DNA of 38,828 nucleotides, from IMG/VR virus record IMGVR_UViG_3300013285_000031, positions 1-38,828 of that record. One strand, 5' to 3'. Within the stretch, counting starts at the first letter, position 1, and each line of letters opens with the position of its first letter. The notes under the pieces are model-generated. The model did no database searches and had not been told where the DNA came from. It was given only the letters and a program-made list of their open reading frames with translations. This DNA comes from a virus. Below are positions 901-34,081 of the stretch, in pieces. Made by a program: the position numbers and the translations under genes.

Positions 901-914
901 TTTGCATTAGTATA
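901..914 (+). promoter_or_regulatory. Phage promoter-like motif, site A (TTTGCATTAGTATA)
   Basis: The 12-base core TGCATTAGTATA (903-914) is shared exactly with two minus-strand sites (near 24509-24520 and 25601-25612) and with one mismatch with 7452-7463. It lies just after the endolysin stop and about 48 nt before the next start codon at 962. It is followed by GATAGGG. No convincing -35 box precedes it. A promoter role is inferred from recurrence and position only. Confidence 0.55.
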
Positions 915-7170: not shown

Positions 7171-7431
7171 ATGGCAGGAAAGTTTCAACAGTTTTTTCCA
7201 TTCCTGCCTGACCATAGTACTTGGGAGAACTTTAACGGCAACTTGGTGTTGTATTATGCCGCGGAGGGAATACCTTACACGATTGAAACAGAGTGGAAGA
7301 CAACCGCCAAGAACGTCACGCAGTCAGCTAGATTTTCTGGGTATCTTGTGTCTGACCCGGAATTGTTCTCAAGCTGGCAGGATTGGGCCAGAGAGTTCGG
7401 GTTAATTATTAACGGAAAGCCTACCCACTAG
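7171..7431 (+). CDS. Small conserved phage protein, probably virion-associated
   Basis: This is an 86-residue protein of unknown function. It begins 1 bp after the stop of the tail hub gene and stops just before the inverted repeat at 7438. The sequence is rich in aromatic residues (FQQFFPFLPDHSTWENFNGN, WQDWAREFG) with no membrane segment or signal peptide. Coupling to structural genes suggests a minor tail component or tail assembly factor. Confidence 0.6.
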   Translation: MAGKFQQFFPFLPDHSTWENFNGNLVLYYAAEGIPYTIETEWKTTAKNVTQSARFSGYLVSDPELFSSWQDWAREFGLIINGKPTH

Positions 7432-7437
7432 GGCGCA

Positions 7438-7474
7438 TATCATCTAATTATTGTATTAGTATAATTAGATGATA
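7438..7474 (+). promoter_or_regulatory. Inverted repeat containing promoter-like motif, site B
   Basis: A perfect 14-bp inverted repeat (arms 7438-7451 and 7461-7474, 9-nt loop) contains TTGTATTAGTATA (7451-7463), the motif also found at 901, 24509 and 25601. The right arm includes the ATG (7469-7471) of the hydroxylase gene, and there is no Shine-Dalgarno sequence. RNA read through from upstream would fold and hide this start codon. If TTAGTATA is used as a -10 element, transcripts would begin at or very near the ATG. Both statements about function are inference. Confidence 0.6.
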
Positions 7475-8056
7475 ATAGAATCTTTTAACAGAATTGCCAC
7501 AGACTTCGACGTTGTGCCACTACAGGTGGCTCTAAAACGTCAGCCGAAGCTCTTTGGTAAGTTTAATTTGCGGGCCGAGGGATACTCCTCACCGCATTCA
7601 AAAATGACCGATATATGGGTCAGATACAACGACGCTACTAAGTATTTAGAAGCCCAAGATTTTACGGGATTTAATGACGAGCATGATAGCGTGTGGTATC
7701 CTTCTTATTATTCACTCCCACAAATACGAGACATTGTTTTTAAATTAATGGCCTTGGTTGAGGGAGAGAGGTTAGGTGCAGTCCTGATCACTAAATTACC
7801 CCCAGGTGGCAGAATTGAAAAACATGTCGATAGTAGCTGGCATGCGGGATATTACGATAAATATTATATCCCGATCCAAAACGCTGAAGGCTCTACATTT
7901 AACTTTGAGGACGGTGTGATTGCCCCCAAGTTAGGTGAGGTCTACTGGTTCGATAACTCAGTGACTCACTGGGTCGAAAACAATAGTGACGAAGACAGAA
8001 TATCTTTAATCATCTGCATTAAGTCAGATAAAGTAAAAGGTGCAGGCAGATATTGA
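7469..8056 (+). CDS. Aspartyl/asparaginyl beta-hydroxylase family dioxygenase
   Basis: This is a 2-oxoglutarate/Fe(II)-dependent dioxygenase of the AspH family, expected to hydroxylate Asp, Asn or Pro residues in a protein substrate. The double-stranded beta-helix signatures are visible: LPPGGRIEKHVD with His119 and Asp121, then VTHWVENNS with His167, and EDRISLII with Arg177. The His-to-Arg spacing of 10 residues matches AspH. The length (195 aa) fits a bare catalytic domain without a signal or membrane anchor. It has no ribosome binding site and starts inside an inverted repeat with a promoter-like motif. It overlaps the following cupin gene by 4 bp, so the two probably act together. The substrate is unknown; it could be a virion or a host protein. 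Confidence 0.82.
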   Translation: MIIESFNRIATDFDVVPLQVALKRQPKLFGKFNLRAEGYSSPHSKMTDIWVRYNDATKYLEAQDFTGFNDEHDSVWYPSYYSLPQIRDIVFKLMALVEGERLGAVLITKLPPGGRIEKHVDSSWHAGYYDKYYIPIQNAEGSTFNFEDGVIAPKLGEVYWFDNSVTHWVENNSDEDRISLIICIKSDKVKGAGRY

Positions 8057-8406
8057 AATCAGTGACGGACATACATAAAGAATTAAGCGGCACGTTTGCT
8101 GTGGACCCTGGCACTATCCATCATTTTTCAGACGGGCTGTACGCTAAACAGATGTTGATACCTAAGGGCTACGTTGCCGGGTCCCACTCCCACGAGTACA
8201 GTCACATAAGTATCTTGGCCAAGGGCCACGTTATTGTCAGTACAGACACAAATTCTACAGAGTACATGGCTCCGGCCTGTATAGAAATTACAAAGAACAC
8301 GCTGCATAATATTGAGGCATTAGAAGACTCTGTATGGTTTTGTGTGCATGCTACAGAAGAAACTAACTTAGACTTAATTGATGAAGTTTTAATAGGAAAG
8401 AAATAA
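8053..8406 (+). CDS. Small cupin-domain protein
   Basis: This is a single cupin-fold protein of 117 aa. A metal-binding type motif is visible (GSHSHEYSHISILAKG with several His), followed by the second conserved region (ITKNTLHNIEALEDSVWF with His). The start is TTG at 8053, overlapping the hydroxylase TGA. This is accepted because the frame begins there and the genes look translationally coupled. Pairing with a hydroxylase of the same structural superfamily suggests a joint modification function. The chemistry cannot be stated. Confidence 0.7.
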   Translation: MKSVTDIHKELSGTFAVDPGTIHHFSDGLYAKQMLIPKGYVAGSHSHEYSHISILAKGHVIVSTDTNSTEYMAPACIEITKNTLHNIEALEDSVWFCVHATEETNLDLIDEVLIGKK

Positions 8407-24094: not shown

Positions 24095-24475
24095 TTATGC
24101 GTTTAACGCTTTAATGAGATCGGCTATCTCTTTGTTGAAGTCAATCTTAACTTCTGCCTTGATGTCAACCTTGGTGTCGCGTGTCTCACGGTAGTCGTCA
24201 GGGTACTGACCCTTTAATGCAATCTCAGCTATCCGGCTGTTAAATGCTTTATTTTCAATGTTTTGCAACATAAGGTTCTCCCAATAGGCCTGACCATGAA
24301 CTGTTGCCAAGTCCATTGTCTCAGCAAAAACAGGGTCGTCTTTCTTTAGTCTTACCGCAGTAGCCCTACTAATCCCAATGGCTGCGTACATAGCCTTTTG
24401 AGACGCGCCAACCTTACCCATATCTAAGATGGTGACGGCTTGCTCGGGTGTGAATTTAATTTTTTTAATGGCCAT
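24095..24475 (-). CDS. Helix-turn-helix protein, possible small terminase subunit
   Basis: This is a 126-residue protein starting at ATG 24475. The longer frame from 24523 would run through the palindrome at 24483-24516. The N-terminal half holds a helix-turn-helix (PEQAVTILDMGKVGASQKAM and then IGISRATAVRLKKDD). The middle has NIENKAFNSRIAEIALKGQY and the end has VDIKAEVKIDFNKEIADLI. This layout resembles small terminase subunits of some tailed phages, which bind packaging sites. A transcriptional repressor is the alternative, supported by a perfect palindrome just upstream. I cannot decide between them. Confidence 0.62.
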   Translation of the reverse strand: MAIKKIKFTPEQAVTILDMGKVGASQKAMYAAIGISRATAVRLKKDDPVFAETMDLATVHGQAYWENLMLQNIENKAFNSRIAEIALKGQYPDDYRETRDTKVDIKAEVKIDFNKEIADLIKALNA

Positions 24476-24482
24476 ATTGATC

Positions 24483-24516
24483 TTAGTATAGTTAGGAAGA
24501 GTCCTAACTATACTAA
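24483..24516. promoter_or_regulatory. Perfect 15-bp palindrome overlapping promoter-like motif, site C
   Basis: The arms TTAGTATAGTTAGGA and its exact complement (24483-24497, 24502-24516) are separated by 4 nt. No T-run follows on the minus strand. The upstream arm, read on the minus strand, is the 3' part of the promoter-like motif at 24509-24526. The dyad lies directly before the HTH gene, so autoregulation by that protein is plausible. Confidence 0.72.
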
Positions 24517-24526
24517 TGCACAAATT
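24509..24526 (-). promoter_or_regulatory. Promoter-like motif, site C (AATTTGTGCATTAGTATA)
   Basis: This 18-base element is identical to the one at 25601-25618 and shares the core TGCATTAGTATA with site A. It ends about 34 nt before the HTH gene start and overlaps the stop codon of the preceding gene. The promoter role is inferred. Confidence 0.58.
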
Positions 24527-24965: not shown

Positions 24966-25289
24966 TTAATTCCCTTTTAAATTTGTTAATCGTTTAAGTT
25001 CTGCGTTTGCGTAAAATAAAATCTTTCTAATGCCTCGTTCTTCATTACAATGTGATGCCTTACCGTACCTGTAACACTCTCTAAAAATCTCCCCAATTTG
25101 TGCGTTCATGAGCTTCGCACTAACTAGGTCTTGCAATTCAGACGCATTTTCTGGAAGTTTGTAGTAGTTCGCAGAAGATCCATCTGATTGTTCTTTGGCT
25201 AACCGAATAAATGTTTCATTTCCACTATGGCACCAAGCTTTTGCTGAAGATTTGCCCCAGTCTTCGAATGTTGCGTTGTCAATACTCAT
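24966..25289 (-). CDS. Hypothetical phage protein
   Basis: This is a 107-residue protein of unknown function with Cys19, Cys71 and Cys80 and a helical C-terminus. It begins with ATGA overlapping the stop of the region-4-like gene, and GGAG lies 10-13 nt before the start. Motifs such as EIFRECYRYGKASHC are not recognised. Confidence 0.58.
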   Translation of the reverse strand: MSIDNATFEDWGKSSAKAWCHSGNETFIRLAKEQSDGSSANYYKLPENASELQDLVSAKLMNAQIGEIFRECYRYGKASHCNEERGIRKILFYANAELKRLTNLKGN

Positions 25290-25597
25290 ACCCCCAGCTC
25301 CTTCTTGATTAATAAAAGCGCCGCATTAAAATGGTAGCGCCAATACTTTTCTGTTACACTAACTTCTTTGTACTTCATGCCCTCTAAGAAGGCTTCCATT
25401 ATGAACTTCTGCTTCGGTTCCAACCTACTGATAATTTTCAGTATGTCTCCCATGTCCTCAGGGTCCCAAGGTAGCCAACCGTCAGATGTTAAGTCCGAGG
25501 CTGTGCCATCCTTACAGTCTTCTCGTTCCATGATGTCTGGGTCTTCATCAGACAGTCTTGGAATTGCGGCGTGTACTTCAAGTTTAATTTTTGTCAT
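25286..25597 (-). CDS. Small protein with sigma region 4-like helix-turn-helix
   Basis: This is a 103-residue protein. The ATG at 25597 is preferred because the longer frame from 25636 would cross the promoter-like motif D. The N-terminal ~45 residues are acidic. The C-terminal ~50 residues (ISRLEPKQKFIMEAFLEGMK, YKEVSVTEKYWRYHFNAALL) have the spacing of sigma-70 region 4: a P-K-Q-x-F/V-I start, a short turn and a recognition helix ending in K-K-E-L-G. There is no region 2. The phage sigma-like factor at 33518 lacks region 4, so a split factor is possible. The region 4 likeness is my reading and is not certain. Confidence 0.55.
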   Translation of the reverse strand: MTKIKLEVHAAIPRLSDEDPDIMEREDCKDGTASDLTSDGWLPWDPEDMGDILKIISRLEPKQKFIMEAFLEGMKYKEVSVTEKYWRYHFNAALLLIKKELGV

Positions 25598-25600
25598 ACA

Positions 25601-25618
25601 TATACTAATGCACAAATT
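25601..25618 (-). promoter_or_regulatory. Promoter-like motif, site D (AATTTGTGCATTAGTATA)
   Basis: This is an 18-base exact repeat of the site C element. It ends 3 nt before the ATG at 25597 of the region-4-like gene. No Shine-Dalgarno sequence precedes this ATG. An imperfect hairpin pairs TTGTGCAT with ATGACAA and would hold the start codon. This closely resembles the arrangement at site B. Confidence 0.57.
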
Positions 25619-31677: not shown

Positions 31678-31806
31678 TTATCTATACTTCCGCATATTTA
31701 CCATATCTGCATACAGTCGTTTACTTGTATCTGAACGCCTAAATGTTTTCATGCGACCATCCCATATTGGCTTGCCGTTAAGCATCCGCATTTGGTGGAG
31801 CATCAT
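31678..31806 (-). CDS. Hypothetical small basic protein
   Basis: This is a 42-residue basic protein ([20 protein letters not shown]) of unknown function. The ATG overlaps the pentapeptide gene stop as ATGA, and GGAG stands 7 nt upstream. The Arg/Lys content suggests nucleic acid binding, but nothing is recognised. Confidence 0.62.
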
Positions 31807-32450
31807 TTTGTTTCTCCTTCAACTGGATTACTCGCGCGATATGCCAATGATTCCGCTCTGTGTGATTCGCAAGCTGAAAGTAACCATATTTTATTTTCAG
31901 ACCAAAATTTAGTGGCATTAGTATCCATTTCTTTGATAATTTCATCATCAAATTTAGCCCATTCTTTATGCTCAAATCGTTTACATCCAATGGTTAAGAA
32001 TGATTCCGTTATGGTTACTTGCCAATAAAGACCGCTGATGAAAATAGGTGCAATTGCTAATTTTTCACCGATTAGGTTGGCACCGATTAGGTTGGCACCG
32101 CGTAGGTTGGCACCGATTAGGTTGGCACCGATTAGGTTGGCACCGATTAGGTTGGCACCGATTAGGTTGGCACCGCTTAGGTCGGCACCGCGTAGGTTGG
32201 CACCGCGTAGGTCGACACCGCTTAGGTCGGCACCGATTAGGTCGGCACCGATTAGGTTGGCACCGATTAGGTTGGCACCGATTAGGTTGGCACCGCGTAG
32301 GTCGACACCGCTTAGGTCGGCACCGCGTAGGTTGGCACCGCTTAGGTTGATTTTTTCTTTAATAGCTAACAATACTGCTTCTCGCATATTGTTAGCTTCG
32401 CAAGTGAAAAGTATGTTGTTGGTATATCTATGTTTAATTTCAATTTTCAT
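31803..32450 (-). CDS. Pentapeptide-repeat protein
   Basis: This is a 215-residue protein. After a ~33-residue start ([20 protein letters not shown]), about 20 consecutive A(N/D)LxG repeats run to about residue 134. These would form a right-handed quadrilateral beta helix. The C-terminal ~80 residues ([29 protein letters not shown]-like) form a separate domain often attached to such repeats in phage and bacterial proteins. Family members such as Qnr and MfpA mimic DNA and bind gyrase, but that role is not shown here. AGGA lies upstream of the ATG. The repeats are nearly identical at DNA level. Confidence 0.88.
32066..32350 (-). repeat. 15-bp tandem repeat array encoding pentapeptides
   Basis: About 19 copies of a 15-bp unit of the form CACCGATTAGGTTGG (plus-strand reading) occur without interruption, with a few substitutions at fixed positions. 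This is the coding DNA of the pentapeptide repeats. High identity, including synonymous positions, points to recent expansion. Confidence 0.92.
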
Positions 32451-33312: not shown

Positions 33313-33525
33313 TTAAGTTTCGTCTGTAAGTCCTTGTTTTATATCATGTGCCAATTTAGTCGCTAAAATGCTGTTTACCCAAGCCCTAAAGTTTTTAACC
33401 GTTTCCTCCGTGTGCTCATCATTTTCATCCCATACTGCCGAGATAATAAACGTACCATCGTCCTCATAGACGTCAATACTTGATAAGTACCCATCAGCGT
33501 CGTACATGTCTTTTAAATTATTCAT
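33313..33525 (-). CDS. Hypothetical small acidic protein
   Basis: This is a 70-residue protein of unknown function. Two ATG codons stand in tandem (33528 and 33525). The second is better spaced (6 nt) from GGAGG. The sequence is acidic with beta-strand character (LSSIDVYEDDGTFIISAVWD) and ends in a helix. It overlaps the sigma factor gene by about 8 bp, implying coupled expression. Confidence 0.62.
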   Translation of the reverse strand: MNNLKDMYDADGYLSSIDVYEDDGTFIISAVWDENDEHTEETVKNFRAWVNSILATKLAHDIKQGLTDET

Positions 33526-34081
33526 CATTGTCCTCCATAAATAGTGCGTCCTCCATCTGATCTAGTGACTCCGGTTCGTGTGTGATGAGTGTCTTAAACT
33601 CCATCACCATGTCTTCCGAGATCCCCATCGCTGTTGCGATCTCTATCGCCTTAGGCTTGCGCCCAAGTGTGTTGGTAAGTGTCCGCTCTGTGTACCGCAT
33701 CTTCTTAACAGATTGCATGACGTTCACCGGTAGTCTAATCATATTGGCCGTGTTATCTAGCTCCCTACTTACACCGCGCTCTATGAAAGACTTGGCGTAG
33801 GTAGCAAACCGAGCATTGTTGGAGGGTATCCACCGCTTGGCCGATATAATCAACTGTTCATTGCCCATGGATATCAAGTCCTCCGATGACATGTTACCAT
33901 GCTTCCATGCCGTCATCTTGCTTACGATGTACACAACAAACCTTAGATTATGGTGTACCAATTTATCTAAGGCCTGTGTGTCACCTCCCTGTATTAGTTC
34001 GGCCAGTCTGTGCTCCTCTTCAATTGGCAGTACATTGTACTTGTACAGGGACTGTAGGTAGTCATTTAAGATATCGCTCAT
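33518..34081 (-). CDS. Sigma-70 family factor lacking region 4
   Basis: This is a 187-residue sigma-like protein. Region 1.2 is clear (DYLQSLYKYNVLPIEEEHRL, AELIQGGD). Region 2 follows (HHNLRFVVYIVSKM, EDLISMGNEQLIISAKRW, ARFATYAKSFIERGVSREL, then MIRLPVN), which covers core binding and -10 recognition. Region 3 is seen as KKMRYTERTLTNTLGRKPKA and IATAMGIS. The protein ends in an acidic tail, with no region 4 to read a -35 box. It should redirect host RNA polymerase to promoters defined mainly by a -10-type element. The four TGYATTAGTATA sites are candidates (inference). Confidence 0.88.
   Translation of the reverse strand: MSDILNDYLQSLYKYNVLPIEEEHRLAELIQGGDTQALDKLVHHNLRFVVYIVSKMTAWKHGNMSSEDLISMGNEQLIISAKRWIPSNNARFATYAKSFIERGVSRELDNTANMIRLPVNVMQSVKKMRYTERTLTNTLGRKPKAIEIATAMGISEDMVMEFKTLITHEPESLDQMEDALFMEDNDE

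Follow-up and report, generated by a model that had tools for sequence, protein, structure and literature searches.

A family-wide bipartite phage promoter and a hairpin predicted to hide a start codon on read-through RNA

Across a family of related uncultured phages we found a bipartite, promoter-like element, and at one of its copies the predicted RNA fold hides a gene's start codon when transcription reads through from upstream. This copy (site B) lies at positions 7438-7474 of the window, by which we mean the whole stretch of DNA analyzed here, a linear IMG/VR virus record of 38,828 nt. We lean toward an account in which site B combines a promoter of this class, a leaderless start and a hairpin that insulates a hydroxylase gene from the structural operon.

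According to this account, the phage-specific promoter (AGGGCG, about 16 nt, TGCATTAGTATA and TA) would be read, probably, by the host RNA polymerase carrying a phage sigma factor, with region 4 supplied by a second small protein. Transcription would begin at about 7465-7467 and yield a leaderless mRNA for the hydroxylase and a cupin-like protein. The promoter spacer of the window genome would have turned into a perfect complement of the start region, and in RNA read through from the structural genes the two would form a 14-bp hairpin concealing the ATG. The hydroxylase would then be translated only from its own promoter, with the hairpin serving as an insulator; in many relatives, a terminator-like GGGCG..GCCC-T run in the equivalent spacer would take the insulator's place.

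The promoter class in the window and in the family

The window carries structural genes on the + strand up to about 16.8 kb and, beyond that, mainly replication genes on the - strand. The motif TGYATTAGTATA is present in four exact copies (903 +, 7452 +, 24509 - and 25601 -), compared to about 0.02 expected, and all four stand just upstream of a gene on the same strand. The copies outside site B are:

903..914 (+), motif copy with GGGCG, ahead of the structural-gene block (PWM score 36.9, the window's best)
24509..24520 (-), motif copy upstream of the terminase small subunit gene (PWM score 30.0)
25601..25612 (-), motif copy 3 nt ahead of the ATG of a sigma-region-4-like gene (PWM score 25.2)

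We then counted the motif in a family set of 160 related loci (2.12 Mb), collected by scans for a structural protein and a DNA polymerase. TGYATTAGTATA occurred 111 times, compared to 0 times for the reversed motif and 0-7 times for 30 shuffled motifs. Aligned and de-duplicated, the sites have the bipartite consensus AGGGCG - 16 nt - TGCATTA(G/T/A)TATAnnTA, with conservation of GGGCG at -21 to -17, of a T-rich spacer end and of TA at +14/+15 (65/71%). These sites were picked by their core, so the core letters are bound to look conserved; this first choice had no bearing on the GGGCG, the TA, the T run or the distance to genes. A later set of 189 sites was chosen by a matrix that includes those four features; in it, GGGCG is located between -24 and -15 in 105 sites, 183 sites are clear of ORFs on their own strand, and for 157 an ORF of at least 100 aa starts nearby on that strand. 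Within the window, the four motif sites score 25-37 with the PWM and a fifth site scores 14.9, compared to at most 16.0 in randomized windows. Site B has the second-best score (30.5) and carries the core, GGGCG at 7431-7435 and TA at 7466-7467.

The first-pass annotation had called the site B motif promoter-like, and the family-wide enrichment, the bipartite consensus, the intergenic and gene-oriented placement and the orthologous copies at the same gene junction in about 50 relatives all bear this out. We regard the bipartite element as a well-supported candidate for a family-wide promoter class, previously undescribed; a literature search with the core motif returned no relevant paper. Judged from these comparisons, it is very probable that the class exists and is present at site B.

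The element has partial counterparts among known promoters. As in host sigma-70 extended -10 promoters, a TG stands shortly ahead of an AT-rich core, and the phage sigma described below retains regions 2 to 3.0. The host elements are TGnTATAAT and TTGACA, however, whereas the phage class has TGCATTA(G/T/A)TATA with GGGCG upstream and occurs together with a phage sigma.

Site B, its start codon and its hairpin

Site B and its surroundings are laid out as follows:

7171..7431 (+), 86-aa upstream gene; site B is recognized across the family by its orthologues (tblastn of family loci)
7431..7435 (+), upstream element GGGCG of the promoter, at -21 to -17 counted from the motif's first T (offset conserved in aligned family sites)
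7438..7451 (+), left arm of the inverted repeat, coinciding with the promoter spacer (repeat search); among site-B orthologues, only in the window genome
7452..7460 (+), hairpin loop, 9 nt (repeat search, RNA fold)
7452..7463 (+), TGTATTAGTATA, -10-like promoter core (family enrichment, PWM)
7461..7474 (+), right arm; it spans the motif's final 3 nt, the position where RNA is predicted to begin, and the ATG (repeat search, RNA fold)
7465..7467 (+), predicted transcription start, offset +13 to +15, leaving a leader of 2-4 nt (from the conserved TA and the ATG spacing)
7469..8056 (+), aspartyl/asparaginyl beta-hydroxylase-like gene, 195 aa (PF05118, E 1.7e-10; start backed by relatives)
8053..8406 (+), gene for a cupin-like protein; it overlaps the stop of the hydroxylase gene (PF07883 at E 2.2e-5, short of the curated cut-off)

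The layout described by the first-pass annotation is confirmed: the two 14-nt arms are perfectly complementary, TGTATTAGTATA occupies the whole loop and reaches 3 nt into the right arm, the right arm contains the ATG (7469-7471), and the 20 nt upstream of the ATG hold no Shine-Dalgarno-like sequence. The codon preceding the ATG is TAG, making this ATG the first possible in-frame start, and the predicted N-terminus (MIIESFNRIA..) matches that of relatives (MNESFAKIA..). The cupin-like gene is probably co-transcribed with the hydroxylase.

The spacing between motif and ATG points to where RNA would begin. It is bimodal across the family: of the 189 sites, 36 have the first open ATG at +13 to +20, mainly at +15 and +17, and a second group has it at +22 or beyond; from +10, where our examination of the 189 sites began, none has an open ATG nearer than +13. 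Since ATGs never lie nearer than +13 and peak at +15 and +17, we infer an RNA start at 7465-7467. The hydroxylase mRNA is thus likely to be leaderless, as the first-pass annotation proposed, and the start predicted from family spacing falls within a few nucleotides of the 7469 that it had named.

In most relatives, orthologues of the 86-aa gene are followed by GGGCG, a spacer, the motif and a gene start, and the gene downstream varies. The nearest relatives encode a site-B protein that begins MITYQ.., with its ATG at +17 in a context, TAGATGATA, identical to that of the window; TAGATGAT, part of the right arm, is likewise present in relatives that have no hairpin. Hydroxylase homologues in other phages lack the promoter, which rules out the motif as a part of the hydroxylase gene. 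Because the site-B promoter and start are orthologous while the downstream genes vary, the hydroxylase appears to be local cargo that took over a pre-existing promoter and start. The orthologues of window positions 7431-8406 form a cargo slot, with one promoter serving various downstream genes among the relatives.

The hairpin itself is rare. Only two perfect repeats of at least 14 bp are found in the window, each overlapping a motif copy, and 200 dinucleotide shuffles of the window produced none of at least 14 bp with a 3-12 nt loop. The second lies by the terminase small subunit (TerS) gene:

24483..24516 (-), 15-bp perfect inverted repeat whose left arm holds most of the motif (repeat search, fold)
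24095..24475 (-), TerS gene (PHROG 309, E 1.3e-9), starting at +45 from the motif

The TerS site is embedded among replication genes, and the TerS ATG lies several nucleotides outside the stem. Of the 189 sites, 3 have a perfect hairpin of at least 13 bp whose left arm would be missing from promoter-initiated RNA, compared to 0.0 expected: two in the window and one in a related locus (L054:6185-6260). This third hairpin-embedded copy has a 13-bp stem, and the gene downstream resembles, by eye, 2-oxoglutarate-iron oxygenases; the stem of its orthologue in L050 is imperfect.

RNA from site B is predicted to fold with -13.9 kcal/mol (z = -2.9). In read-through RNA with at least 60 nt of upstream sequence, the AUG is paired with a predicted probability of 1.0, compared to about 0.4-0.6 when the RNA starts at 7467 and at most 0.35 when it starts at 7469. 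The earlier proposal that read-through RNA sequesters the ATG therefore holds for predicted folding, which largely frees the ATG on motif-initiated RNA, but the hairpin is not conserved. It is absent from all other site-B orthologues, and the closest relatives have at most 9 complementary bases there, with other positions paired. The right arm is ancestral, constrained sequence and the left arm is new. The hairpin's absence from the closest relatives indicates that hiding is not a family-wide logic.

Other roles for these structures were considered and rejected. The hairpin is not a promoter element itself, since almost no other promoter copy has one. By comparison, the N4 virion RNA polymerase uses a hairpin as its promoter element. 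Nor is it an intrinsic terminator, as its stem is AT-rich with no T run after it. Family-wide, an initially strong spacer signal does not reflect pairing with the start; it arises from pairing with the upstream GGGCG in terminator-like stems. The spacers of many relatives pair with GGGCG in this way and end in T runs. In loci such as L107, L108, L281 and L291, the spacer contains a terminator-like stem, GGGCG..CGCCC-TTTTT, whose 5' arm is the promoter's own GGGCG, so that terminator and promoter are fused.

Candidate readers of the promoter

Two window genes encode candidate readers:

33518..34081 (-), phage sigma factor with regions 2 and 3 and without region 4, 187 aa (PF04542, PF04539, PHROG 351)
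25286..25597 (-), sigma-region-4-like protein, 103 aa (PF08281, E 7.7e-4, below the gathering cut-off)

The sigma's PF04542 and PF04539 matches are above cut-off, and it aligns to residues 97-264 of the 368 of SigA, with region 4 absent from the same protein. An exact peptide scan found no sigma relatives, whereas a profile search recovered them in 13 of 18 family records and in 11 of the 12 records of at least 51 kb; fragments lacking one may simply be incomplete. The region-4-like protein is conserved in the family, and 13 of its 31 homologues match PF08281. Its AF2 model has a mean pLDDT of 75, mostly above 90 in the C-terminal half, and most Foldseek matches are to sigma factors or to sigma region 4, at E values of 0.37 or more; a PDB profile search with the family returned nothing meaningful. 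The motif also precedes many orthologues of the region-4-like gene, with leaderless-type ATG spacing, and the mRNA of this gene, under the motif, is probably leaderless as well.

Motif variants are largely uniform within each genome. A variant core, CGTATTAGTGTA, accompanies a distinct sigma subgroup, with support from only three sequences of one clade. The variant stands at orthologous sites in L312, L314, L320 and L262; among genomes in which a sigma was found, the subgroup accompanying it has Lys at window residue 120, and the others have Asn. Records G005 and G006 have the sigma, and neither motif form was seen in them. In two distant relatives, including Caulobacter phage RW, neither protein was detectable, and the stretches examined hold no motif.

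We infer that the phage sigma probably reads the promoter. The region-4-less sigma (33518-34081) and the region-4-like protein (25286-25597) together suggest a split sigma factor, an arrangement that we consider reasonably likely. Split sigma systems are found in phages T4 (gp55 and gp33) and SPO1 (gp34 and gp33), where, as here, a short sigma without region 4 is paired with a separate small accessory protein. Unlike theirs, the promoter class at site B has a GGGCG upstream element, and the likeness drawn here is one of arrangement.

More broadly, we tentatively propose that a large uncultured phage family uses a two-piece sigma (regions 2-3 and region 4) to read a new bipartite promoter, GGGCG-16-TGCATTAGTATA, that drives leaderless mRNAs, and that the spacer has a second function in insulation, through a terminator in many members and through a start-hiding hairpin in the window virus. 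A widespread family thereby gains a readable regulatory code of promoters, Shine-Dalgarno-less gene starts and likely reader proteins.

Competing explanations for the hairpin

Whether the hairpin is a functional insulator or silencer is, in our estimate, evenly balanced. Several observations weigh against insulation. Ribosomes that terminate on the 86-aa gene, at 7431, would unwind the base of the hairpin, where the ATG lies, so hiding may be incomplete; if RNA began at 7463-7466, the AUG would remain partly paired (predicted 0.1-0.9). The hairpin is missing from the other site-B orthologues, spacers across the family are no more complementary to their downstream regions than shuffled spacers (mean rank 0.499), and three hairpins are too few to establish selection. 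The main rival, which we rate as rather unlikely, accepts the promoter and gives the hairpin no selected role: a one-step template switch would have placed an inverted copy of the promoter and start in the spacer or, at the TerS site, downstream. The repeats are perfect and their sizes bimodal (three of 13-15 bp, the next 8 bp), the closest relatives lack hairpins, and an ancestral right arm facing a new left arm fits such an event. Nevertheless, both window repeats of at least 14 bp fall on two of the four promoters, and a wider scatter would be expected from template switching unless promoters are hot spots.

In T4, the start regions of genes e, soc, 49 and I-TevI are hidden on early read-through RNA and freed on RNA from late promoters (PMC3014915). 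The first-pass annotation drew this analogy, which stands for geometry and predicted hiding and falters on promoter sequence, conservation and timing. As in those T4 genes, the site B promoter is placed within or next to the 5' strand of a start-covering hairpin, and promoter-initiated RNA lacks that strand (PMC3014915); by predicted pairing, the start is sequestered on read-through RNA and freed on promoter-initiated RNA. The T4 late core is TATAAATA without an upstream element, whereas the site B core differs and GGGCG is conserved. Late RNA of T4 gene e retains its ribosome binding site, whereas site B RNA is predicted to be leaderless, and the T4 structure recurs in close relatives, whereas the site B hairpin does not. 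Site B works like the T4 device, and is not one by descent. Start-codon hiding on read-through RNA, known from T4, may have arisen separately around an unrelated promoter class.

We consider it improbable that site B is a T4-like timing switch, in which the hairpin silences early read-through RNA and the internal promoter turns the gene on late, despite its matching geometry. Early and late transcription are separate in T4, and such separation is doubtful at site B, since the structural genes upstream share its promoter class (903) and read-through is expected at the same time. In relatives, the motif is also found ahead of replication genes, so that the class may not be strictly late. The TerS hairpin fits this timing logic better, as early read-through is plausible among replication genes, though the TerS ATG is outside the stem. 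At site B, insulation from the structural operon is the better fit.

Translational coupling appears very improbable. Ribosomes ending the 86-aa gene would open the hairpin base, and the hydroxylase would be translated from read-through RNA; the left arm begins 7 nt past the stop codon, and the ATG region (7469-7474) is paired to the first 6 nt of that arm. However, there is no Shine-Dalgarno sequence for re-initiation, the gap is 37 nt, and coupling is unnecessary given a dedicated leaderless promoter. The simplest functional reading is that the hairpin insulates a cargo gene, a role taken elsewhere by a terminator.

Elsewhere in the window, positions 31803-32450 (-) encode a pentapeptide-repeat-like protein whose coding DNA is a tandem array of about 13 TAGGTTGGCACCGAT-type units.
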